From: a virus
IMG/VR virus record: IMGVR_UViG_3300032053_000379
Span: 1 to 28,904 of that record
Direction: 5' to 3' (one strand)
DNA length: 28,904 bases
Shown: positions 5,359 through 21,387 of the stretch, in pieces
Position numbering within the stretch: the stretch's first letter is position 1
How the letters are laid out: each line of letters begins with the position of its first letter
Notes under the pieces: generated by a model
What the model saw: only the letters and a program-made list of their open reading frames with translations
Databases searched by the model: none
Told to the model about the DNA's origin: nothing
Made by a program: the position numbers and the translations under genes

Positions 5359-7932
5359 TTATTCTTTCTCATCACTGCTGTTCCACAGACTATTTAACGG
5401 GGCTATACTAGAAACGACGTTTTCTTTATTGCTTAAATCTTGACGTGGGGTCTCATCAGTTGTTTTATCAAGCATGCCCCCAGTCGTCATATGTGCCCAT
5501 TCTGTAGTCGAACTACTCAACGGTTTACGATCTTTATCGACTATTACGCCTCTAATGAAATGAATAGACGTCATAAAGGAACGCGCTGCTGAGTCAGACA
5601 TAGACATGCGGTGCGCTATATTTTCGACGTGTGCCAATATCCATGGCTCATTAGGATCTTCTGCCAGCTCGTTCGTGTTCCGCTCGATAGTCGCCTTAGG
5701 TTTATTTTTTAACGCCGCCTGCGTTAAATTACTCTGAAAATTAAAGGCACGCAACGGGAACATGATGTTGTCGCCAACCTGTATATAATTGTCCTGCCCT
5801 ATAAAATTTATAGTACCATTTAGCATCAGATGTGTGTTGAAATACCACTCCCTCAAAAGATATTTCCATATAAGCGTATTAATGATCAAAATAGGATCAC
5901 TGTTTAAGAGTGTCTGCATCCCTGTAACTGCGGCATTAACTCCAGTATCCACAGTAGGGGGCGCGACAAGCTTCTTGACCGGCGCCTTAGTGTTTTTGGC
6001 GATCTTTGCCGCTCTCTGTTCCTCAGCGGCTTTTTTTGCTAAAATATCGCGTGTCGAGTTTAATTTTTCGGCACGTAACACAGCGGCATCGTATTCCTTT
6101 TCGGCGTTATCTTGCTGCGCAACTAGCATATCTAATTTTTTACCAATTGTTTTTAATTTACCCTGTGCGACCTCATACACCCTCTTCCTTGAATACCAAT
6201 TTTCACTGTGCCAATTAATGCCCTTTTCTTTTAAATCTAAATCATTAAATTCTTTATATTTTACTTGAAAATCCGCTTTTGCATCAATAAACTGTTGTCG
6301 CACAGAAGGACGAATCGGCCCCTTAGCAGTTAATGATATCGACCCCGATTCCGTTATCTCAATTACCATATAAAGTCTATCTTTTTCGTTACTCCATTTC
6401 TTTACAGCTGCATCCGCTTGAATGACTTCATCGCGTATTTTTTTGATATATGCCTTATCCTTCGCCGCCGTGATCGCAGTAGCAGTGGCAGTTTTTGTAG
6501 ATGCGACATGGGATGTAGGGGTTGGTTGTGTTACAGTTTTTGCAGATGCGAGTAAGTCAATATCCGGCCAATAACGGCATGACTCCATTCGAGGACGAAA
6601 GCCTTCACGAGAAAAAGCCATAGTATCAAAGCTTTGTGATGTTAATTTCATCGATGAATTTAACGCGGCATCTTTTAATTGATGATCGTATAAAATTTCT
6701 ACAAAGTTATATTTATCGCGCCAGTTATTCCCTGCTTCTACGGATACGATCTCCTTTAAGGGAATTTGCACGGTACGCAGATCAAAGAAACGCGCCGCAA
6801 TTTTTCCCATAGTGGCACGGCGGGATGCATCACTTAAATCTTTCCCCGCTGTGGCGGCTATCTCGTCTATATCGCGCACTAAAAATGGCCGAAAACGCTT
6901 ATAAAGAGCTAAAACCGGCACACTATCTCCGTTGGGCCCAAATTCCCAACGCATATCGCATATAAGTTCATTTAGCACAGGATTGCAGGCATCATTTAAG
7001 ATTTGCCACATTTGATTTTGGCCGGTAACACTATCAGCAGAAAGTATACACCACCCTTCTGCTACCGGTGTATATTGATCAAAAAATACGCCGTTTACTG
7101 GCGCGGAATTTTCTCGCGTTACCTTACCTAAATAAGGAACTACTAGCCGCGCGACATCGTTCGATGTACTTTCTATTTTGATGCTTTGAACAGTTTCTCG
7201 AAGAGACGGAGGCATTTTATCTATTGACGTGAACAGATCCGACTCTTTAAATTTAAAAAAGGTCACTAGATCGGATGGGAAACGAAAGGCTACATTGGCC
7301 CGTATTATCACGTTTTTAGGTAAATCTTTGTTGCCTGTATCGACGCTTAACCCCCACATCATCAACAGCGCCGCCAAATTTTGATCGGAAGACCACTGCA
7401 TCTCTCCGCCGCTGCTCGCCATGTATGCGCCATAGAATAATCGCTGTGAAAAAGACAAAGTATCTTCTTCGCTACCCCTAGATATTGGATCTATGTATAA
7501 CACAGTGTCAAATACAGTCCCCCAATCAACTCCAGTAACCGTGTACACCGTTGTCCTTGTCCCAGACGCGCTCACGTTAGCCGAAGCGCGCACGGATTCA
7601 ATTCGGCCTAACATCTTTACTTGTTTGGCGTTTGCTTTTACGTATAGATCATTTTTAGTGAAGGGGGTTTGCGACATCAGAATGGCTAGCCAACTACCGG
7701 GCGTAAGAAGCGCTAACCAATTTTTAGTAGGGGCTAAAACCATAGAAAATGCACCACTAGAAACAGCTTTTTGTTTCTGTATGTCAATGCTTATAATACT
7801 TTTATCCAATCGAATAACATCGACAGCGTGAGGATCAGGTATATGGGATGCGGTATCTATGGGCATGGAACTAAAACGATCGCGATAGTTCCAAATTATC
7901 ACTGCTGCATGCGGAGTTTTTATCATTGACAT
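5359..7932 (-). CDS. Baseplate hub protein with long charged helical insertion
   Basis: 857 residues, ATG at 7932 (a second ATG two codons on is also possible; the ribosome binding site is weak). Residues 1-460 show a beta-rich hub-like architecture: DVIRLDKSIISIDIQKQKAVSSGAFSMVL, then TPGSWLAILM, then GRIESVR and VYTVTGVDWG. This is the layout of gp27/gpD-type hub proteins that bind tube and spike. Residues 675-800 return to hub-like beta segments (NGTINFIGQDNYIQVGDNIMFP). Between them, residues about 465-660 are very rich in Lys, Ala, Glu and Gln with heptad-like helices (AQQDNAEKEYDAAVLRAEKL) and a Pro/Lys-rich end. This looks like a coiled-coil or linker insertion. The gene lies between tape measure and spike, the normal hub position. 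Hub function is inferred from fold pattern and context. Confidence 0.65.
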   Translation of the reverse strand: MSMIKTPHAAVIIWNYRDRFSSMPIDTASHIPDPHAVDVIRLDKSIISIDIQKQKAVSSGAFSMVLAPTKNWLALLTPGSWLAILMSQTPFTKNDLYVKANAKQVKMLGRIESVRASANVSASGTRTTVYTVTGVDWGTVFDTVLYIDPISRGSEEDTLSFSQRLFYGAYMASSGGEMQWSSDQNLAALLMMWGLSVDTGNKDLPKNVIIRANVAFRFPSDLVTFFKFKESDLFTSIDKMPPSLRETVQSIKIESTSNDVARLVVPYLGKVTRENSAPVNGVFFDQYTPVAEGWCILSADSVTGQNQMWQILNDACNPVLNELICDMRWEFGPNGDSVPVLALYKRFRPFLVRDIDEIAATAGKDLSDASRRATMGKIAARFFDLRTVQIPLKEIVSVEAGNNWRDKYNFVEILYDHQLKDAALNSSMKLTSQSFDTMAFSREGFRPRMESCRYWPDIDLLASAKTVTQPTPTSHVASTKTATATAITAAKDKAYIKKIRDEVIQADAAVKKWSNEKDRLYMVIEITESGSISLTAKGPIRPSVRQQFIDAKADFQVKYKEFNDLDLKEKGINWHSENWYSRKRVYEVAQGKLKTIGKKLDMLVAQQDNAEKEYDAAVLRAEKLNSTRDILAKKAAEEQRAAKIAKNTKAPVKKLVAPPTVDTGVNAAVTGMQTLLNSDPILIINTLIWKYLLREWYFNTHLMLNGTINFIGQDNYIQVGDNIMFPLRAFNFQSNLTQAALKNKPKATIERNTNELAEDPNEPWILAHVENIAHRMSMSDSAARSFMTSIHFIRGVIVDKDRKPLSSSTTEWAHMTTGGMLDKTTDETPRQDLSNKENVVSSIAPLNSLWNSSDEKE

Positions 7933-7945
7933 ATTCTATAATCCA

Positions 7946-10900
7946 TTATTTTGTGGGCATCAATGGCAATTTTTGATTGTTAAGCGAATGCCGTGTCTCC
8001 GCCTTACTGGTCCCAGGCCCTGGAGTACCGCTGATATCAGCCATAAAGTTCATAAAACGCCCACCCGCGCCTACGTTCTTTGACATGTCTAACGGTTCAT
8101 TGAGCTGCGGTATCGAAGATCGATCAAATCCTAACCGATCTGCCAACATCTCAGCCGCTGCCTTAAATATAAGCGCCCCCGTATTTATATTTTCGCCGGC
8201 TTGTGATAATTGTGGTAAACTCATGTCTTGAAACGCTTTCCCTACGCCTTCGCGGAACGTGGCGGGATCCATGCCAGCTGCCAGCGCTTGCATCGCTGTT
8301 GATAATTGTGTAAACGTCTCAGAAACGCTCTTGATATACGGAAATGATTCTTGCATCTTTTCCATAGTCGATTGAACAATGCGATTAGTTTGTTCAGCCG
8401 CCGTTACCACCGCACTTTCTGCCGTAGTAACTCCTTTACCATTGACACCAACATCACCTTCTCTTGGGGCTACTCCTCTTGACATCGAAGTAATGAACCC
8501 AAGATGTCCCATATGCGCCCGTTGCGACACCGCATTGACGACTGATTTCGCTGGCTGGGACATTTGATCCCATATCGTCGTAGCGTTTCTACCACCGGGG
8601 TTAAGAAACGCGTTCATTATCTCTTGATCAGTCTGGGGATCGCCCAACGTAGAACCGTAATTAGTGAATGTTTTTCGTATAGTAGATTCGATCGAAGCCC
8701 TTAACAGATCTCGATTAAGTTTACCCCCAGGAGCGAGTGCGGATAAGTTCATCCGATTGGCAGTAGCGGCCCCAGCGGCCTCGCCCTTAGTATTTGTTAC
8801 CCTCTCTACTTCTCGCAATTGCTCGATGCCCGTGTACATCAAGGTGTTTAAGTCAGGCAATGACATATTTGGCGCTGCTCTTCGCAATATGCTGATCTGC
8901 TGCATTGTTCCTAGGTCAAATCCGGCTCTTCTACTAAGATCGCCGGTTTTTGCCATCGCTGCTTCTACCATTGGGGCAGCAAGATTCTTAGGAATTCCAG
9001 CGTCTGTGGCCGCTTGCACGCCAGTGGCCATATATTGTTGCATAGTGCCAGTGACATCGATACCCATCTGTGCCGAACTGGCAGAAAGAGTGACTATTCC
9101 TGATACCATCTGACCAATATTTTTAGAACTATCTAAGCCAGCCGCCACCGCTTCTCGCAATATCTTGCCCATCGCGGTTGGGTCACCGCCTGCGCCCGCG
9201 ATCTGTCCCGCCATCCCTATAAACTGCGATTCTGACGCTACTAATCCCCTGCGCGTCGCTGTACCGGCTTGTGCCAGCAAACCAACCGCGTTCGCGCCAG
9301 TGAATTGCGCGCCCATCGCCGCGGTAGCTTCTGCAAAAAGCGTGGGAGCCATGGTTTCAAGGTCAACGCCAGCAGCCGATAATCGTGCCCGACCCGCTTG
9401 ACTGGTAGCGGCATTAAAGATGTCGTCACGACGGGCACCAGTGCCTCGTAATCCATACGCCGCGCCTGATACGGCATTATAAGTAGTTTGCCCCATCATA
9501 GCCGGAACGGCGTTTATGACGTCGGCCGCGCGCATCCCTGTCTGAGCAAATACCAACGCTTGCTGCGCTGCCATAGCGTCAAGTCCCATTATGCCTCTCG
9601 TGAGAGAACCTGCTCCTTCACCGCCGGCCTGCGTTGCTCCGATTAAATTTCCACCAGCCCCTGTTTTTAACGCGTTTATAGTCGCTTGAGAGGCGTCAGC
9701 CCCTAATATTGCCGCACCAGTTTGATAGGTAGTGGCACGCGCTGATTCAGATAAATAAGCCACTTGGTTAAAGGCACTTAGGCGGGCATACGCTCTAACA
9801 TCGCCTTTCGCTACGTTGCGCCAATCTTGATAAGCACCAACGACCATCTCTCCCATCTGCGCGCCGATCTGCGCTTGTTGCATTGGGAGTTCGACGGCGC
9901 CATACTGCACCGTTTTTGCAGTTTCACGGACGGCGGTGATAAGGCCTTGGATGGCTATGCCCCACCCGCCAGATAAAACACTTAAGATTTTAGCACCTAA
10001 GGCATCAACCGCGCCTGGATCTACGCCAGCTTTTCTAGCTGCAGATTCTTTTTCAGAAAAAACATCTCTTGCTTGCTCAAATTTTTCGCTTAACTCATCT
10101 TGATTCTTAGCGTTTGTGTTAATGGCTTCATCTAATTCTTGAAATGATTTAATTAATTCTTTTTGCGCGACGGCGTACTGCGATCGTAGATCTTCAGCTG
10201 AAATAGCACCACCTTTTACCTGCTGTGCCAATTCAGTTGCCTTTTCCTCACGCCCAATACGCTCTATTAAACCCCTTCCACTTTCATACGTTTTTGTGAT
10301 GTCCGGTTTAAACTGTAAGGCACGCTGTACTAAAGCTTCTTTTTTATATACACCGGTTAACTGAGCAGCGTTCACATCTATCGTCGCTGCATTTTCCGGC
10401 AGCGTTGGATCCTCTAAAGCTACCCTCATACCCATGCTCAATTCTTCTCTTTTAGCGATCAACGCCTCTTGTTCGCCCATTAATTGCGTCGTCGTTTTCG
10501 CTCTCGACATAGCAAACGCACTAACGCGCTGCAAAGGATTTGCCATCGTCGCGGCCCGCACTGATCCTTGATATTCAGGGGTCGTCGTGTAACGTAGCGC
10601 GTTAACTAGACGTGCTTCAGCCATTGGTTCAAGACGCTGTTGTTCTTCTTCGCGCACGCCACGTAAAGAGTTTTGTGCACGAACATAATCCTCTGCAAAC
10701 GGGCGAACTTTCGCTTGAACAAAAGCTTCTAATGGATCTCCACGTAATTGTAGCTCACCAATCCCTCTAGCTCGCATAGTTTCTGCTATTTCTAGCATTT
10801 GAGCTTCGGCGGCAGATTGTTTTTGTATAGTTTCTGTGATCTTAGCGGTCGTCTTATTGACGTCTCGTTCTCTTTGCTGATATGCCGCGGCAACTAACGG

Positions 10901-11020
10901 AGACTCCCATCTCCTACGACCAATCTCTGGGGCACTGAAACCGCCAGCTGAGTTAACAGGAGAACGGGCTTTATTTACGCCATTGGGATCATCGGGTTGG
11001 TCAATCACTGGTATCCTCAA
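7946..11020 (-). CDS. Tail tape measure protein
   Basis: 1024 residues, Ala/Gln/Thr-rich. The N-terminal third is helical and coiled-coil-like (QRERDVNKTTAKITETIQKQ; ELDEAINTNAKNQDELSEKF). A hydrophobic helical segment near residues 340-365 (ILSVLSGGWGIAIQGLITAV) is followed by an Ala/Gly-rich body with repeated GAQ/AGG patterns (AAIL...ATINALKTGAGG, QFIGMAGQIAGAGGD). This composition and length, together with its place right after the frameshifted chaperones and before the hub, identify the tape measure. It sets tail length and is later ejected. The first possible start is TTG at 11020, because a TAA precedes it two codons upstream. GTG at 11008 has GAGG six bases ahead and is a good alternative. 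The start overlaps the end of the frameshift product (stop 11001-11003), suggesting translational coupling. Confidence 0.8.
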   Translation of the reverse strand: MRIPVIDQPDDPNGVNKARSPVNSAGGFSAPEIGRRRWESPLVAAAYQQRERDVNKTTAKITETIQKQSAAEAQMLEIAETMRARGIGELQLRGDPLEAFVQAKVRPFAEDYVRAQNSLRGVREEEQQRLEPMAEARLVNALRYTTTPEYQGSVRAATMANPLQRVSAFAMSRAKTTTQLMGEQEALIAKREELSMGMRVALEDPTLPENAATIDVNAAQLTGVYKKEALVQRALQFKPDITKTYESGRGLIERIGREEKATELAQQVKGGAISAEDLRSQYAVAQKELIKSFQELDEAINTNAKNQDELSEKFEQARDVFSEKESAARKAGVDPGAVDALGAKILSVLSGGWGIAIQGLITAVRETAKTVQYGAVELPMQQAQIGAQMGEMVVGAYQDWRNVAKGDVRAYARLSAFNQVAYLSESARATTYQTGAAILGADASQATINALKTGAGGNLIGATQAGGEGAGSLTRGIMGLDAMAAQQALVFAQTGMRAADVINAVPAMMGQTTYNAVSGAAYGLRGTGARRDDIFNAATSQAGRARLSAAGVDLETMAPTLFAEATAAMGAQFTGANAVGLLAQAGTATRRGLVASESQFIGMAGQIAGAGGDPTAMGKILREAVAAGLDSSKNIGQMVSGIVTLSASSAQMGIDVTGTMQQYMATGVQAATDAGIPKNLAAPMVEAAMAKTGDLSRRAGFDLGTMQQISILRRAAPNMSLPDLNTLMYTGIEQLREVERVTNTKGEAAGAATANRMNLSALAPGGKLNRDLLRASIESTIRKTFTNYGSTLGDPQTDQEIMNAFLNPGGRNATTIWDQMSQPAKSVVNAVSQRAHMGHLGFITSMSRGVAPREGDVGVNGKGVTTAESAVVTAAEQTNRIVQSTMEKMQESFPYIKSVSETFTQLSTAMQALAAGMDPATFREGVGKAFQDMSLPQLSQAGENINTGALIFKAAAEMLADRLGFDRSSIPQLNEPLDMSKNVGAGGRFMNFMADISGTPGPGTSKAETRHSLNNQKLPLMPTK

Positions 11021-11875
11021 GCATTATAGACAAATCCTTGCCAAAATCCGGCCCAAATTCTTCTTTAGCCTTCTTGATCTGCTCATCGACCCACTTATCA
11101 TCCCGCTTAGCCAATGGTGACTGCTCCGTTGGTGATGATTCTGGGGCGCGCATGGCCGTATCGTATTCTTTGTGTTCTTTAGCTTCTTCTTCTAGAGCCC
11201 ATTGCTCCGCGCTATCGACCTGTTCTTTCTCTATCTTATCAGCTTCCTGCTCAGCCTCGACTTGAGCGACGTTGCGACGTATAGCCTTATCTTGATATTC
11301 ATAATAAAGTTCTTCTACCGTATAGGATTGAAGTAATGGATCTTTTAGTGGGCGTTGATAGTATTCTGACCACCAAGCTTGAAGTTTTAATAAAAGACGA
11401 AGTTCAGAATTTTCTGAACTTTCAGCGTGGCCCCTGATTATGTCCGTTATAGCGTCAAAACGAGAGAGCCGCCTTAATTGCCCCTCGTTAGCTATTTTCC
11501 CAATGGATCTTTTTGCTCAGCAGAAGGTTGCTTCTTAAGGCGTTCTATCCATTGAGCTTCTTGCACCATAACCTTATCGAACAACTCAACCAGCACGTTC
11601 TCGTCAAGGAAGTCAAGGCCGCCGTTGCTGTTCTGCCACCAATCTGGCGCTTTGATGATGCGACCGCGAAGTGCGGATATCACCGTTGCAATGCCTTGTA
11701 AGTTACTGGAAGGATTGGCCGATTCGCCAACCAGGCGTCCGCGCTCTAGTTCGACCTGACGCTTCTGCAGGATACTGAGCACGCAGACGACGGTGAACTC
11801 GCCAGCGTATTTTTGCTCAGTGATGGCGCCGGTAGACTCAAAATAAAAAACACTTTCGTTCTTTGGTAGATCCAT
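11001..11875 (-). CDS. Tail assembly chaperone, -1 frameshift product (gpGT-type)
   Basis: A G GGA AAA heptamer (11501-11495) lies directly before the TAG of the 127-residue upstream frame. Slipping back one base gives ATA GCT AAC..., a frame open for 164 codons to TGA at 11003-11001, so the fusion would be 291 residues. The extension begins IANEGQLRRLSRFDAI. It contains LRLLLKLQAWWSEYY and a Glu/Lys-rich tail (VEAEQEADKIEKEQVDSAEQ), the acidic helical style of gpT regions. It has no ATG near its beginning, so it can only be reached by frameshifting. In lambda and many other tailed phages the G and GT products sit between tube and tape measure, and their ratio governs tail assembly. That placement is identical here. 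The slippery site and open frame are seen directly; usage is inferred. Confidence 0.85.
11459..11501 (-). promoter_or_regulatory. Programmed -1 ribosomal frameshift signal
   Basis: The minus strand has GGGAAAA at 11501-11495, in phase as G GGA AAA for the upstream frame (X XXY YYZ type, one base different from lambda's GGGAAAG). The zero-frame TAG follows at once. Five bases later AACGAG (11489-11484) can pair with CTCGTT (11464-11459), a 6-bp stem at a typical spacing for a stimulatory hairpin. The heptamer is clear; the stimulatory role of the stem is inferred. Confidence 0.85.
11492..11875 (-). CDS. Tail assembly chaperone, unshifted form (gpG-type)
   Basis: 127 residues from ATG at 11875, preceded by TAGGAG eight bases upstream, ending in TAG at 11494-11492. 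The sequence starts MDLPKNESVFYFES, has a beta-like N-terminus, a helical middle (TVVCVLSILQKRQVELERG) and ends with ...QKDPLGK exactly on the slippery heptamer. No family motif is strong enough for a name on sequence alone. The call rests on size, position between the tube genes and the tape measure, and the frameshift signal at its last codons. It should act as a cytoplasmic chaperone that coats the tape measure before tube polymerisation and is absent from the virion. Confidence 0.75.
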   Translation of the reverse strand: MDLPKNESVFYFESTGAITEQKYAGEFTVVCVLSILQKRQVELERGRLVGESANPSSNLQGIATVISALRGRIIKAPDWWQNSNGGLDFLDENVLVELFDKVMVQEAQWIERLKKQPSAEQKDPLGK

Positions 11876-11899
11876 GTGCCACTCCTATTTTATAGATAT

Positions 11900-11934: not shown

Positions 11935-12684
11935 TTAAAAAAGACGCTTAACTTGAGGTAAATATTTAACTAATACTTGTTTTGCCTCAGGCACCCCAGC
12001 ACCTGCAGCCTTTTTTGCATCATCTATTGCTTTAACCGCAGTTGGCGGAAGGGCGGCTGTAGGAAGAAGTGGCGATATTTCTGGTGGAGTTACTTTTGCC
12101 ATCTTTTGTAGCGTAACATCTGGCGATTCTGATACGCGGGATTCTATGATATTGGGAGGTTCTGGATCTCTTTCATCGCGCCAACCAATGGCTTTCCAAG
12201 CTAACGTGATTGACCCTAACGCTTCTGCTTTTAACTCTTCTGCGCGAGAAGTTATCTGTGCTTTTCCTGTTAAAAACAGCAGTTGATCAGTTTTAGAGTC
12301 ACGCACCTCGATCGTTATGTATTTGTGAAATAAGAAAGAAAGCACGTCTGGCATGATCAGGTTCTGCGTCGGACTCTGACCAGGCAAACGCAGGCCACCG
12401 ATGGTTCCTTCTACACTAACCATGGTGGGCACTAATTCTACGGGTAACGGGTTATCGATAGTTCTAATCTCACGTGTTTCCGTGTTGATACGCCACGAGA
12501 TCGCGGTCGCGAAAGCAGCCAATTCTCCGTTAATCTTCAGCATACAGCGCGCGCCAGAGGCATATTTAGCTTGGGGGCGTAGCGAGTAAATTTCTCGTAA
12601 GGTGTCGCCTACGTTTTCAGCGGCACTCGATATAAGATTCTGGCCTTCTAAAGCCGGGAATAATTGATTAAGAAGGTTCGCCAT
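11935..12684 (-). CDS. Tail tube-like protein, third paralogue
   Basis: 249 residues, ATG at 12684, two bases after the stop of the second tube-like gene. Residues about 40-105 align by eye with the N-terminal domain of the two upstream tube proteins: GARCMLKINGELAAFATAIS here against GANAKIKLNGLTVAFATDMS there. Both are followed by a beta strand, a P-x-E/L-x segment and V-x-V-x-G-T/S. A second beta segment (YITIEVRDSKTDQLLFLTGK) resembles the second half of a tube fold. The C-terminal 60 residues are Pro/Ala-rich (LLPTAALPPTAVKAIDDAKK) and unlike the other two copies. It could be a tube-initiator or tail-terminal ring protein rather than the main tube subunit. Membership of the tube-fold family is supported by alignment and tandem placement; the specific role is open. 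Confidence 0.55.
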   Translation of the reverse strand: MANLLNQLFPALEGQNLISSAAENVGDTLREIYSLRPQAKYASGARCMLKINGELAAFATAISWRINTETREIRTIDNPLPVELVPTMVSVEGTIGGLRLPGQSPTQNLIMPDVLSFLFHKYITIEVRDSKTDQLLFLTGKAQITSRAEELKAEALGSITLAWKAIGWRDERDPEPPNIIESRVSESPDVTLQKMAKVTPPEISPLLPTAALPPTAVKAIDDAKKAAGAGVPEAKQVLVKYLPQVKRLF

Positions 12685-12686
12685 AA

Positions 12687-13310
12687 TTAAACAAACTGTT
12701 GCCCTACGCCAGACATACCCGTAGAGAACGAATCCTCATCAGCATAGATACCCATGAACGTAAAACGCTGTATAGCAGTCGATCTTTTCGTTAGCTGAAA
12801 ATCAGACCTTGTCAATCTACAATCCCTTATGATAGCAACACGCTTCGATTGAGTCGTATTTGATCCAATATCTTGATATTTTTGATATATCTCTATATCA
12901 AACCGAAACCCAACATCAAGCGACTTAGGATCAAAGGACAGATCTGCTCGCCCATCATTTAAATTGCTCGGACTGAACGTCTTCTTCAACTCGTCCAACT
13001 TTGCCTTTGTGTTCTCATTAAAGCCTTTAGGTGCTCTTGTGTAGCCACCGATACCGTTTCCATGCGGCGACACGCCGTCAGGTACTTGTGCTACGGCGCC
13101 AGCCATCCCTTTTATGTAGCGGATAACGGTGAAGCTACCGCTTACGTCATAAGAAAGCGGCTCCACGGAAGAAGGCTCGTACATGCCTAATAGCCGGGGA
13201 GCCGCGTGCTTGACGTCGATAGTATATGACATGTCTGTAGCAAACGCGACCGTAAGCCCGTTTAGCTTAATCTTAGCGTTCGCACCGGTCAAAAAGAACG
13301 TCTGTGACAT
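12687..13310 (-). CDS. Tail tube-like protein, second paralogue
   Basis: 207 residues from ATG at 13310 with GAAGG upstream. It aligns along its length with the 182-residue tube protein next to it. The N-terminus has TGANAKIKLNGLTVAFATD against TGANAKIRLGNITIAYAQD; a G-x-YE-x-x-S-x-EP motif is followed by Y-x-V-x-G and IRY. The C-terminal half has FDPKSLDVGFRFDIEIYQK against FDPKNLLSSETFTLEIMQK, then IIRDCRLTRS against KLHDCRFVRK. It carries an extra loop near residues 75-115. Both are probably tube-fold proteins from gene duplication. One may polymerise and the other may make a special ring at the baseplate end, or the tube may be mixed. Which one is the main subunit cannot be told from sequence alone. 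Confidence 0.65.
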   Translation of the reverse strand: MSQTFFLTGANAKIKLNGLTVAFATDMSYTIDVKHAAPRLLGMYEPSSVEPLSYDVSGSFTVIRYIKGMAGAVAQVPDGVSPHGNGIGGYTRAPKGFNENTKAKLDELKKTFSPSNLNDGRADLSFDPKSLDVGFRFDIEIYQKYQDIGSNTTQSKRVAIIRDCRLTRSDFQLTKRSTAIQRFTFMGIYADEDSFSTGMSGVGQQFV

Positions 13311-13325
13311 ATCGCCTTCTAATAA

Positions 13326-13874
13326 TTACACTAAATCTGCGTCGCCTGACCTTGCGACCTGGTCGGCAGCGGCGGAGGTAGAATCGTCGTCGTGCAATAT
13401 GCAGTTGAACGCGTAACCGTCGGTCAATATGCCGCGCTTGTTGACGCTTGCGCCCTTGCGGACAAAGCGACAATCATGCAGTTTCACGATCGATTTAGGA
13501 TTTGCGGCATCCATACCTTTTTGCATGATCTCGAGCGTGAAGGTTTCCGAGGATAGCAAATTTTTCGGGTCAAAATGCATGCTAGCGTTGCCCCCTGTTC
13601 CTGGGACTAGTTTCTTCATGCCGTTACCACCAGCGGCGGCTTGGAAGGGTTTTCCTGTTGCTGCTGCGCTTGCCGCATAACGAATGATGCTTAGCGTACC
13701 TTGTACGGAATAAGCGACCGGTTCATTAGAAACTACCTCGTAGCGGCCCATCGTCTCGACCGGGATCGAGGTGACTTCTACGTTGTAGCTAACGTCTTGG
13801 GCGTACGCGATCGTGATGTTACCCAACCTGATTTTGGCATTAGCGCCAGTGATAAAAGACGGTGTATAACCCAT
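13326..13874 (-). CDS. Major tail tube protein candidate, first paralogue
   Basis: 182 residues from ATG at 13874 with AAAAGGAG seven bases ahead. It is the first tube-like gene in the transcript and is preceded by two hairpins in its leader. By eye its codons favour G/C endings, as in the sheath gene, unlike the AT-rich baseplate genes; both points suggest high expression. The fold pattern is all-beta: NAKIRLGNITIAYAQDVSYNVEV, YSVQGTLSIIRY, FTLEIMQK, IVKLHDCRFVRK. In myoviruses the tube gene normally follows the sheath gene directly. Here the two are separated only by a pair of HNH endonuclease genes. The tube forms the inner channel through which DNA passes. Confidence 0.7.
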   Translation of the reverse strand: MGYTPSFITGANAKIRLGNITIAYAQDVSYNVEVTSIPVETMGRYEVVSNEPVAYSVQGTLSIIRYAASAAATGKPFQAAAGGNGMKKLVPGTGGNASMHFDPKNLLSSETFTLEIMQKGMDAANPKSIVKLHDCRFVRKGASVNKRGILTDGYAFNCILHDDDSTSAAADQVARSGDADLV

Positions 13875-13972: not shown

Positions 13973-14620
13973 TTAAATTTTGTTGCTTTTTCTTAAATTA
14001 TCTTTTGCCCATAGCGGCTGAAGATTTGTGTAATGACAGGCTTTTTTCAATTGTTGAGGATCTGATAGATCAAACGATGACAACGGCATCATGTGGTCGA
14101 TATGCCAAGTCCCCCGACCCCAATTCTTCCAAGACATACCGGGGAGGAACTTAGATTCAATGTAGGACTGTAGCTCTGGGATGGAGCATCCTAAGTTACG
14201 AATAGCTGAGCCTCGCTGACCCTTCCCGCGCAAGGCTGCGTTTAAACGTGCCCTCAATACCGTGCGCAAACGATACGTGGTTGAGCGATGATATAGTTGC
14301 CTATGGTAGCAAGTATCGCACGTATCCCCGTGGTAGCGACTACCGATTATAGGGCCTTGGCATGCCTTGCAATTTTGCTGATAATCTCTTATCTTCTGTT
14401 TGATCATGGTCTTGCGGCGATGACAACCTCGGCATGTTGGGCCATCGTACCATATCCTAGCCAGCACTACGCCGCATAAAATACATGGGTTGCCACTTCT
14501 ATGCTTATGGGGCGTTGTTCGATACCTTTTCATGTAGCATGCGATGCAGATAGTCGGGTCTGCATTAGCCCAACGCTGGGTAACCTTAGTTTTACAGATA
14601 ATGCAACTTTTTGTGGCCAT
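13973..14620 (-). CDS. HNH homing endonuclease with multiple zinc-binding pairs
   Basis: 215 residues from ATG at 14620. Six CxxC pairs (C6/9, C25/28, C46/49, C63/66, C84/87, C101/104) suggest three zinc ribbons for DNA binding. The C-terminal HNH part has GSAIRNLGCS, FLPGMSW, then WHIDHMMPLSSF with the catalytic D175-H176. YTNLQPLWAKDN follows with the second and third motif residues (N199, N208), and the end is KSNK. It is a free-standing homing endonuclease of the type common in phages, cutting alleles that lack it. It lies between sheath and tube genes and is transcribed in the same direction as both, divergently from a second HNH gene 70 bp away. No ribosome binding site is visible; a TATAAT lies eight bases ahead of the ATG. 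The C-terminus closely matches the HNH protein at 20641-21387. Confidence 0.85.
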   Translation of the reverse strand: MATKSCIICKTKVTQRWANADPTICIACYMKRYRTTPHKHRSGNPCILCGVVLARIWYDGPTCRGCHRRKTMIKQKIRDYQQNCKACQGPIIGSRYHGDTCDTCYHRQLYHRSTTYRLRTVLRARLNAALRGKGQRGSAIRNLGCSIPELQSYIESKFLPGMSWKNWGRGTWHIDHMMPLSSFDLSDPQQLKKACHYTNLQPLWAKDNLRKSNKI

Positions 14621-14628
14621 AATAAGTC

Positions 14629-14634
14629 ATTATA
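14629..14634 (-). promoter_or_regulatory. TATAAT just upstream of HNH start
   Basis: The minus strand reads AGTATAATGACTTATT directly before the ATG at 14620. A transcript starting about seven bases downstream of the -10 would be nearly leaderless, matching the absence of a ribosome binding site. There is no clear -35. Confidence 0.4.
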
Positions 14635-14678
14635 CTATATCAATAATATTAAATGTCTTTGTTGAAGGTATTTATTGG

Positions 14679-14684
14679 TATAAC
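14679..14684 (+). promoter_or_regulatory. Extended -10 upstream of plus-strand HNH gene
   Basis: The plus strand reads TTGGTATAAC six bases before the ATG at 14691, an extended -10 (TG-N-TATAAC). The gene has no ribosome binding site, so a leaderless message is plausible. Confidence 0.4.
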
Positions 14685-14690
14685 GGCTTT

Positions 14691-15332
14691 ATGGAAAAGA
14701 CATGTACACGCTGTAAAATTACAAAAACACTTGATCAATTTCATAAAGAAGTACGAGGAAAATTCGGTGTTAAGTCGAAGTGTAATAAGTGCATTACTGA
14801 GTTAAGTCAGCAATGGAAAAAAGAAAATCCAGAGCGCGAACGAGCTAACAGGAAGCGATGGAACGCGACTAATAAGACTCAGCACCATGAAATGACATAC
14901 AACTGGCGTGATGCTAATAAACAGCGTCATGCAGAATATGTTGCGAAATATCAACGGGATCGCAAGGCCGTTGATCCCTTGTTTAAATTGACCTGCCAGT
15001 TCCGAAGTCTTTTATATAATCATTTAATGAGAAAAAATTTAAAGAAACATCAGAGGGTTGAGCGCTATCTTGGTTGCTCTTTTGAAGATTTTAAAAAACA
15101 CATTGAATCGCAGTTTGTATCTGGGATGACTTGGGAAAACTATGGAACTTATTGGTCGATAGATCACTGTTGCCCATGTTATCAAGCACAAAACGAAGAA
15201 GAATTCGATAAATTACAACACTTTAGTAATCTACGGCCCGTGACCGTCGTTAAGAATCTATTCAAATCCAATAAAAAAACTAAAGAAGCAGAGAGTCTTT
15301 GCGTTAAACTTCTTGGTCGATCTTGGATCTAA
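14691..15332 (+). CDS. HNH homing endonuclease, plus strand
   Basis: 213 residues from ATG at 14691 (MEKTCTRCK). An in-frame ATG at 14544 exists, but it would overlap the divergent HNH gene and add an unlikely hydrophobic stretch, so the later start is chosen. One zinc-ribbon pair set is seen (C5/C8 and C31/C34). A long basic helical linker follows (residues 40-95). Then comes the HNH part: ERYLGCSFEDFKKHIESQF, SGMTWENYG, WSIDHCCPC with D158-H159, FSNLRPVTVVKNLFKSNK with N180 and N190. The residue before ID is Ser rather than His (WSIDH against WHIDH), as in some active family members. It runs against the surrounding virion genes, so it needs its own promoter and has its own terminator. Homing function is inferred. 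Confidence 0.8.
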   Translation: MEKTCTRCKITKTLDQFHKEVRGKFGVKSKCNKCITELSQQWKKENPERERANRKRWNATNKTQHHEMTYNWRDANKQRHAEYVAKYQRDRKAVDPLFKLTCQFRSLLYNHLMRKNLKKHQRVERYLGCSFEDFKKHIESQFVSGMTWENYGTYWSIDHCCPCYQAQNEEEFDKLQHFSNLRPVTVVKNLFKSNKKTKEAESLCVKLLGRSWI

Positions 15333-15384: not shown

Positions 15385-17571
15385 TTACGCTACTGACTGT
15401 GCTCTTTGGAGCGTGATCGTAGCGAGTATGAAGTCAATGCCTTCGACCAGTTTCACAGTCACGTCGATGTAGATTATGTTGCCCTCAAGGCGGACGCTTA
15501 GTGAATGATACCCGTTAGGCGCATCAGCTGTCGAAACCGTGATCCCTTGCGACAGGTACGTACGAAGGATCGAGTCGGCAGTAGAAGCAACCTCGGTCGC
15601 CTTCACCGTATTCTTGACGCCAACGTACAGGTTTTCCATCTGGTTGCGGAAGTCATAGGCGAGGATGTCGGCTGCGTACAACACGTTTGCTCTGTTGTAC
15701 ACCCAGTTACCATCTCTACCGTAGGTTGTATTGTCGACCACAACGCGGAAGCCACCGGTCTGTGGGGCTTCAAGGAACGAGATACCGCTCTGGATAGCTT
15801 CATCCGCCATCGTGTCCGGATCAAAGTCGCCCACGATGTCCTCAGCTGCTGTACGCATTGGCTGCCCAGTCTGTCGGATACCGCTGCAGTTCATGCGCTT
15901 GAACGTCATCGGGGTTCCGATCGGCGAACCACCGCGCGCACCGGCGAGGAGGCAAGCAAGCGCCCATGGCTGATACCACCTGATGTTACCTTGTGCGTCA
16001 CTCTGACGGATGTCTTGGATGAACAGCTGCGATCTCGCGTCTGCTATGATGCCAGACTGCGCTTTGCAGTTGTCAAACGAGTCCTTCATTGACAGGTAAC
16101 CTTGACGCTCGGACTTCTTCTTGGTAGTCGCCATCATGCTGAGATGCGTCTTCACGGCCTGGTGGAGACCAGCTAGCGTGTACGAGGAAAGAGAATCAGT
16201 GAGACCGTCTAAGATGTCTTCGGCAGCGTCGCGTGAGAACAGCGGGACGACGGAGTTAACACGCACCTTAGAGAATTTCTCAAGTGCGGTCACCATATCC
16301 ACGGTCTGTGACGCGCCTTTCGCACCGCCAGAGAGCGCAGTCTCGATCAGTGCGTCAGCAAGACCAGTCATCGCCTGGTTGGCGATCAAGGCTTGCAGCG
16401 ACTGCGAGAAGAAACCAAGCGTATCAGAAGCGTCCTTCTTCATGCGAGCGGGCTTGTTGGCCGCGCTAAGCGCGCCGATGTCTGACACATAATCAAGAGC
16501 AAGCGGTGGGAGAACGCCGTACAGTGGCACGGACACTTCTGAGGCCCAACCCGTTTGCAGGTTGATGTAGCGAACCATATCACCAAGGGTCGGATAGGAT
16601 GCCTTATCGAGCGTGAAAACTGGCGATCCGTTAAGCTTCAGGATCATGGAGCTAGCGTTCACCGATACGGAGGCTGATGCGCCTACGCCGGTGTACCCGA
16701 TCGACATCACGATGTTACCGCCCAGCGCTTCCTCTTCTTTCAGGAGGTCACGGGTGCTGAAGATGCTCATCGTAGATGATGGCTCGAGCGCCGGCGAATA
16801 CATCGCCGGAGTTATTTTCATCGTCGCTAGTGGAGTACCGAGCTTGTTGGCGAGCTCGAAGCTGCGACCCCAACCGCTGCGGTGCAGGTTTGAACCGGCC
16901 GCCATCGCGAACGATATAGTGCTTGCGCCATCGATGCCGCCGACCACGACCGTCATGCCAGCGGGAAGACCAGCGGACCAGTTCCCGGCACCAGCAAGAG
17001 CAGCAATGAGGTCTGCGTTATCGGTGATCGCTGGGAACGTGAACGTGTTTGGCGCTCCACCGTTCATGTAAAGATCAAACTTATTGCCAGTCACGATCGA
17101 AGCCTCGTTGAACGTTGCGGAGGAGAGGGCTACTGCAGGAACTTCGCCGATCAAAACGTTCTTGTAGGTGATAAGGTTACCACCGATACCGTACTCACGC
17201 GACTTTACCGTGCCGTAGGAGCTGGCAAGAACGAGCTGAGCACGAAGAGAGGCGTTGGTCTTATAAACGTAGATAGCCTGCGCGCCCGATGGGATCGCCC
17301 CGTCAGTCGCTGGGCTAAACAGGAAACTAGCTGCATCGACGATCGGACCGGAGCGATACTTATCGCGGATAGCTGGCATCTGGTCAGGACTAAAGACGTT
17401 GTTCGCGATCTCGACCTCAGCACTGCCTGGCGCGCCAGCATCGGCTTCGCCGAAGATAGCAACAAGGCCAGTAGGGCTAAGTGGGAAGCCGCCGCCTAAG
17501 TCTATGATACTCTTAGAGTATGCGCCGGGGACCCAGATAGTCGCGCCGTTGAATGAAACATTAATCGCCAT
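15385..17571 (-). CDS. Tail sheath protein
   Basis: 728 residues, ATG at 17571, with AAGGAG and an ideal seven-base spacing before it. The sequence begins with a sheath-like N-terminus (FNGATIWVPGAYSKSII, then TGLVAIFGEADAGAPGS). Residues about 85-110 (PSGAQAIYVYKT) are also typical. The C-terminal domain fits the conserved sheath core: ANVLYAADILAYDFRNQMENLYVGVKN, ADSILRTYLSQGI, LEGNIIYIDVTVKLVEGIDFI. The middle region with Ala/Gly/Ser-rich beta segments would be the surface insertion. In the virion it stacks around the tube and contracts on infection. Codons favour G/C third positions by eye, unlike the AT-rich baseplate genes, as expected for a very abundant protein. The transcript ends at the hairpin 15336-15368. 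Confidence 0.85.
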   Translation of the reverse strand: MAINVSFNGATIWVPGAYSKSIIDLGGGFPLSPTGLVAIFGEADAGAPGSAEVEIANNVFSPDQMPAIRDKYRSGPIVDAASFLFSPATDGAIPSGAQAIYVYKTNASLRAQLVLASSYGTVKSREYGIGGNLITYKNVLIGEVPAVALSSATFNEASIVTGNKFDLYMNGGAPNTFTFPAITDNADLIAALAGAGNWSAGLPAGMTVVVGGIDGASTISFAMAAGSNLHRSGWGRSFELANKLGTPLATMKITPAMYSPALEPSSTMSIFSTRDLLKEEEALGGNIVMSIGYTGVGASASVSVNASSMILKLNGSPVFTLDKASYPTLGDMVRYINLQTGWASEVSVPLYGVLPPLALDYVSDIGALSAANKPARMKKDASDTLGFFSQSLQALIANQAMTGLADALIETALSGGAKGASQTVDMVTALEKFSKVRVNSVVPLFSRDAAEDILDGLTDSLSSYTLAGLHQAVKTHLSMMATTKKKSERQGYLSMKDSFDNCKAQSGIIADARSQLFIQDIRQSDAQGNIRWYQPWALACLLAGARGGSPIGTPMTFKRMNCSGIRQTGQPMRTAAEDIVGDFDPDTMADEAIQSGISFLEAPQTGGFRVVVDNTTYGRDGNWVYNRANVLYAADILAYDFRNQMENLYVGVKNTVKATEVASTADSILRTYLSQGITVSTADAPNGYHSLSVRLEGNIIYIDVTVKLVEGIDFILATITLQRAQSVA

Positions 17572-20640: not shown

Positions 20641-21387
20641 TTAATCAACAATAGAACATTTATTACTCTTACTACGATTCTCTTTCGCCCAAAGTGGCTG
20701 TAAATTAGTATAGTGACAAACCATCTTCAGTTGCTCAGTGTTAGTAAGATCAACAGAAGAGATTGGAATAATGTGATCAATGTGCCAGCCATAAAAGCCA
20801 TAGTTATCCCAAGTCATGCCAGGAAGAAACTTTGATTCAAGATAGGATTTAAGTATCAATATTGAGCAGCCAAGATCTTTAACCGCCGAACCAGATTTTG
20901 CATTATTTTTAAGTGCACTCTTAAAGCGACTCCTTAATATGTGCTGTAAACGATACTGTATATTGCTGTGATATCGTTTATAATCTGCCGTTCGCGATAA
21001 TGTTCTTTTTAATTCAATATTGTTATCGAACCATGTTCTGCGATAACACAGTTGACTACAATATTTTTTTTTAGCAGTCGTTGATGAAAAGCTGCGACCA
21101 CAACGTAAACAGTTATTGATTTTAACTACAGTGCCCCTAGATTTTGTGCGACTATGGCAATTTCTGCACATAGTGCCAATGCGTGTCTGAAATACGCGAT
21201 TGCATAATATGCACTGCTGATCATGCCGTGGATACTTAGCATTTACCCATTGCGTTTTATATTTGGCGATACACGCCTTACAAAAATGCGCAATATATCC
21301 TTTACCAGTAATAGGAAAATTTACAATATTAAACATATTATTACATTGCTTGCATCGTCGCATATTATGAATTGTTGTATCGTCCAT
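20641..21387 (-). CDS. HNH homing endonuclease with zinc-binding pairs
   Basis: 248 residues, ATG at 21387, weak ribosome binding site (GAGAG). Metal-binding pairs are C12/15, C36/39, C59/62, C74/77, C93/96 and C110/114, i.e. about three zinc ribbons. The HNH part reads GSAVKDLGCSILILKSYLES, FLPGMTWDNYG, then WHIDHIIPISS with catalytic D204-H205, then CHYTNLQPLWAKEN and KSNK. The C-terminal 85 residues are nearly the same as in the HNH protein at 13973-14620 (shared FLPGM, WHIDH, CHYTNLQPLWAK), so the two are paralogues spread within one genome. The N-terminal zinc parts differ more, which may mean different target sites. The gene sits between two head-tail joining genes, a typical homing insertion at a gene boundary. 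Confidence 0.85.
   Translation of the reverse strand: MDDTTIHNMRRCKQCNNMFNIVNFPITGKGYIAHFCKACIAKYKTQWVNAKYPRHDQQCILCNRVFQTRIGTMCRNCHSRTKSRGTVVKINNCLRCGRSFSSTTAKKKYCSQLCYRRTWFDNNIELKRTLSRTADYKRYHSNIQYRLQHILRSRFKSALKNNAKSGSAVKDLGCSILILKSYLESKFLPGMTWDNYGFYGWHIDHIIPISSVDLTNTEQLKMVCHYTNLQPLWAKENRSKSNKCSIVD

Follow-up and report, generated by a model that had tools for sequence, protein, structure and literature searches.

A divergent contractile-tail phage, represented by the 28.9-kb IMG/VR record IMGVR_UViG_3300032053_000379 (28,904 nucleotides; this whole stretch is called the window below), most probably joins two tail chaperone frames by a programmed −1 frameshift. We put at about 0.93 the probability that its G gene encodes a chaperone, that a minority of ribosomes slip by −1 at a GGGAAAA heptamer with the help of a hairpin, and that the product is a G-T fusion with a tube-recruiting T part. 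Within the phage family of the window, the frameshift and an overlapping internal start seem, on comparison of the sequences, to replace each other. The features concerned have the following positions in the window.

11492-11875, minus strand: G, the candidate short tail assembly chaperone frame, 127 amino acids plus a TAG stop (11494-11492)
11882-11886, minus strand: ribosome-binding site of G, AGGAG, by reading of the sequence
11495-11501, minus strand: candidate slippery heptamer G GGA AAA, in the X XXY YYZ register
11001-11495, minus strand: T, the −1 frame extension, 164 codons, with a TGA stop at 11003-11001
11517-11519, minus strand: nearest upstream stop of the −1 frame, TGA, closing T 8 codons ahead of the slip
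11459-11489, minus strand: hairpin, AACGAGGGG, a 13-nt loop and TCTCTCGTT, starting 5 nt past the heptamer
11550-11552, minus strand: T-frame ATG at the conserved G tryptophan (A-TGG), after which the T frame stops 5 codons on
7946-11008, minus strand: probable tape measure gene, with GTG 11008 behind GAGG and an alternative start at TTG 11020
11935-12684, minus strand: tail-tube-like protein directly upstream of G, with a weak PHROGs major tail protein match (E 0.002)
15385-17571, minus strand: tail sheath (PHROGs tail sheath, E 4e-37), a query for relatives

The 3' end of G in the window reads GAT CCA TTG GGA AAA TAG. As the initial annotation had stated, GGGAAAA directly abuts the stop of the 127-codon frame, and it stands in the correct register for slippage. 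The same annotation described a −1 frame of 164 codons without a start of its own that ends within the start of the tape measure gene, and both points held. The T frame has no ATG, GTG or TTG in its first 114 codons, the first ATG, at codon 114, leaves 50 codons, and the T stop overlaps the tape measure GTG, the most likely start of that gene, by 8 nt. Around the slip site G and T overlap by 8 codons only. A start-to-stop gene call had been expected to overlook the second half, and T is indeed absent from the start-to-stop ORF list at 60 amino acids. No in-frame T start with a ribosome-binding site was found in the open frame of the window. Because the frame is closed upstream at 11519 and offers no ATG, GTG or TTG for 114 codons, an internal T start is unusable there. 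The stem had been placed after a 5-nt spacer and given 6 bp; the position was right and the length was not, as the stem can be extended to 9 pairs. Taken by itself the window hairpin is weak, with z values of −0.51 (81 nt) and −1.6 (50 nt after the heptamer) that do not set it clearly apart from shuffles.

Loci of relatives were fetched from viral contigs and genomes through alignments of the sheath, the hub and T. Profiles of G and T detected both genes in 161 loci, which reduced to 79 non-redundant loci at 95% nucleotide identity, the window included; the relatives are uncultured myophages. Single-protein scans of viral contigs with G or the tape measure as query gave no match; the relatives came from the sheath alignment and from those made after it. 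In all 79 non-redundant loci T overlaps G and is offset from it by −1, and the two were never found in one frame (0/79). Identity of T to the window was 32-52% across 45 relatives. The T alignment (46 members) has 15 invariant columns, and the WW, P, D-P and Y-E positions are among the invariant ones. Because it is conserved as a protein, T is a real coding frame; G is likewise conserved as a protein (51-member alignment). One contig assigned to a Cytophagales bacterium genome (LNEN01000305.1) agrees in length and coordinates with a viral record of 146,658 bases (L113 / L050). It appears to be of the window's phage type, so that it may either have been binned wrongly or point to the host.

A GGGAAAN heptamer in the slip register was present within the last 11 codons of G in 39 of the 79 loci, against 0.17 expected from the 42 in-register GGGAAA in 218,160 codons of the relatives' other ORFs. 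The heptamer was GGGAAAC in 27 loci, GGGAAAA in 10, and GGGAAAT and GGGAAAG in 1 each. From the end of the heptamer to the last base of the G stop the distance is 3 to 24 nt. Whatever the distance between heptamer and stop, a hairpin starts 3-11 nt past the heptamer, mostly 4-8 nt, in 39/39 of these loci. The stems at this position vary by clade (GCCGAC/GTCGGC, GGAGAG/CTCTCC, ACGGAGAT/ATCTCCGT). The mean fold z was −3.05 in the 39 loci vs. −0.82 in relatives of the ATG type described below, for which the 50 nt from the G stop served as control (P = 1.4e-7). On comparison across loci, the pairing of heptamer and hairpin argues strongly for programmed −1 frameshifting in the half of the family that bears the heptamer, the window among it. 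Together with the −1 offset in every locus, it supports the joining of the two frames that had been proposed from the window sequence.

The G alignment gave an AlphaFold2 model with a mean pLDDT of 91. In a Foldseek search against predicted viral structures, this fold matched, at probability 1.00, proteins of Bacillus phage JL and Lactobacillus phage 521B that are annotated as tail assembly chaperones. The PHROGs chaperone families phrog_25000 and phrog_1038 were matched weakly by 7 and 6 of the 51 G members, respectively. G had no Pfam match and no match among solved structures. The predicted fold and the weak profile matches support the assignment of G as a tail assembly chaperone, in keeping with the initial proposal. 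In the AlphaFold2 model of T (mean pLDDT 86) a long helix comes after a small helical domain, and the fold search with T gave no match at E ≤ 0.001.

The proposed order of tube, chaperone and tape measure was borne out in related sequences, as a homologue of the tube-like protein was present in 78 of the 79 loci and stood at the upstream edge of G in 77. The tape measure candidate had no family match and was therefore assigned by its position and by the narrow length range of its homologues. It has 1,020 residues, and complete homologues mostly fall between 904 and 1,035 residues, as expected for a length ruler. A Baseplate_J protein is also encoded in the window. Other observations were made in this region. 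Three tube-like proteins with a common N-terminal motif, phrog_3776, are encoded in a row (11935-12684, 12687-13310 and 13326-13874, minus strand), and homologues of the three genes occur in nearly all relatives. Three endonuclease VII/HNH-like genes lie within the tail operon (13973-14620, minus; 14544-15332, plus; 20641-21387, minus), the first two on opposite strands with an overlap of 77 nt. The hub-like protein (5359-7932, minus) has an insertion of about 200 residues, rich in charged residues, which is absent from the homologue in L004.

Of the remaining loci, 35 of the 79 have no GGGAAAN. They carry instead an in-frame ATG inside G, and the T frame is open back to this ATG. In most cases a tryptophan codon near the G 3' end supplies its TG, and the base just before that codon its A (A-TGG). 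At the T ATG the upstream ribosome-binding energy averages −6.4 kcal/mol, close to the −7.2 at the G starts themselves. It was −2.0 at the same spot in the frameshift group (P = 1.7e-11) and −1.8 kcal/mol at other out-of-frame ATGs inside G (P = 5e-18). Among the 38 loci of the frameshift group, 36 have the T frame closed somewhere from the conserved tryptophan to the G stop. For the ATG group 7.7 of 35 frames were expected to be open, a test that is partly circular because openness is among the features that define the group; the Shine-Dalgarno test depends little on openness. A search for a slip site in the ATG group gave only chance heptamers, in few loci. Relatives with a disrupted heptamer had been named in the initial annotation as evidence against the frameshift. 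Taken literally, such relatives exist; since they carry an ATG and a ribosome-binding site, and the window has neither, they do not refute the frameshift, and the claim stands. The predicted covalent fusion is not universal in the family, as these 35 relatives have a start in place of the heptamer.

The two signals are nearly exclusive: among the 79 loci, 38 have the frameshift signal only, 35 the ATG only, 1 both, and 5 fall outside these classes. The locus with both (L121, 4929-5020) has an ATG with CAGGAAG upstream and a GGGAAAC with a 10-bp hairpin in one overlap, and is possibly an intermediate able to make both T alone and G-T. Of the five others, L106 has CCCAAAC with a hairpin-forming sequence and L144 has a GTG; the G ends of L051, L056 and L184 have no GGGAAAN heptamer, and these loci have no T start either. 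L051 and L056 look eroded. L184, among the window's nearest relatives, keeps a hairpin-forming sequence, but its G end reads GGGGGAAAAG.

A third layout was found in Myxococcus phage Mx1 (OR576727), the only tblastn match of G among named phages (30% identity over 96% of the query). A recognisable T (23%) adjoins its G. Unlike the T of the window, it has its own GTG behind AAGGAG, 2 nt past the G stop, and the Mx1 G/T overlap holds no slip heptamer. In Mx1 (L002) the chaperone/tape measure block (74303-77763) and the sheath (at 39319) are about 32 kb apart; in the window and relatives the two stay within a few kb of each other.

The start-bearing relatives raise the question of whether T is a separate protein in the window too, made by internal initiation or re-initiation. 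The in-frame ATG of 35 loci, preceded in most of them by a strong ribosome-binding site, and the GTG of Mx1 speak for it. Against it, in the window, stand the upstream closure and the long stretch free of start codons; the ATG at the equivalent tryptophan meets a stop after 5 codons, and the first ATG comes only after the conserved T motif. We consider a separate T in the window very unlikely. Another account would make the frame break an assembly error or a decayed gene, with G and T as one ordinary gene, and the window is indeed a single metagenomic contig for which we found no second read of the same virus. Against this, the 79 non-redundant pairs share two frames at −1 offset with none in a single frame, and both frames are conserved as protein. 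We rejected an assembly error on this evidence from relatives and give the account almost no credence.

It could further be argued that G and T, though translated, have another role than that of tail assembly chaperone and are, for example, two virion proteins of the same layout. The missing Pfam and solved-structure matches of G and the lack of a significant fold match for T speak for this. The location of the pair, flanked by tube and tape measure, argues against it, as do the frameshift signal and the predicted-fold and profile matches to annotated chaperones, and we find it highly improbable. Our reading of the window is a frameshifting chaperone gene, for which lambda provides the model.

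The slippery site of lambda is GGGAAAG. The window pair resembles lambda gpG/gpGT in its place between tube and tape measure genes, the −1 shift near the G 3' end, the scheme of a short and a fusion product (predicted in the window) and a GGGAAA-type slippery site. It differs in having GGGAAAA, a hairpin 5 nt downstream and a contractile tail, in the lack of detectable sequence similarity to the classic families, and in that about half of its relatives do without the shift. Across tail chaperones the −1 frameshift is widely conserved; lambda uses the G part to bind the tape measure protein and T to bind the tube subunit, and the proportion of the two products is important (PMC5009743). The G to G-T ratio has been reported as essential in lambda (PMC5009743) and TP901-1. 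Slippage in the window, its efficiency and the molecules bound by G and T are carried over from lambda by analogy. The 127-residue G would serve in tail assembly as a chaperone and probably coat the tape measure protein. Of the ribosomes on G, a minority would slip back one base at GGGAAAA, aided by the downstream hairpin, pass the TAG and make a predicted 291-residue G-T fusion, whose T part would recruit tube subunits. The window pair is a divergent member, in a new family, of the known gpG/gpGT frameshift group.

Other systems have parallels with the family as well. To judge by its title, a 2022 paper by Vladimirov et al. suggests that T4-like phage tail chaperones are made by a non-frameshift route. 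In Vandenendeviridae, a tail chaperone −1 frameshift was argued from uninterrupted −1 frames across the family (PMC12846349). As in the window, the tail is contractile and an unannotated −1 extension lies between chaperone and tape measure; unlike the GGGAAAN and hairpin of the window family, the site there is GTTTTT and is reported as conserved throughout (PMC12846349). In Microbacterium cluster EA, some subclusters frameshift; in others, with no evident frameshift, each of the two frames appears to be expressed on its own (PMC7302621). Unlike the window family these are siphophages, and the passage concerned is one sentence long, with no start-site analysis. The GeneTack authors noted that, in homologous genes, translational coupling may take the place of recoding and vice versa. 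In the open-access literature we found no quantified, near-exclusive exchange of slip site and internal start in one phage family.

We think it likely that in this family the programmed frameshift has been swapped for a Shine-Dalgarno sequence and an ATG internal start at the conserved G tryptophan, probably more than once, that the fusion is dispensable there, and that L121 is an intermediate. The two modes cluster strongly in both the G/T tree and the neighbour-protein tree. A single split between them was rejected in the neighbour tree (AU P = 5e-4) because the ATG-type locus L038 is nested in a frameshift clade that has full support. The ribosome-binding site of L038 is weak, and with this locus removed one split was not rejected (P = 0.92). 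L125 and L181 change position from tree to tree, and Mx1 gives a weak root owing to its long branch. On these sequence trees, at least one exchange is certain and two or more are probable.

The window supplies a half-gene that start-to-stop callers skip and puts a highly divergent phage family into the gpG/gpGT scheme. Mechanistically the site is ordinary among tailed phages, its family is new, and it is worth more within the paired set of variants than by itself. The 38 frameshift-only, 35 start-only and 1 dual natural variants of one chaperone form a direct test set for covalent fusion against a mere dose of T as the requirement of tail assembly. If the exchange is true, T of the ATG-type phages would be a separate protein whose rate is set by initiation, and neither a covalent G-T fusion nor a low fixed ratio would be needed for contractile-tail assembly in these phages.
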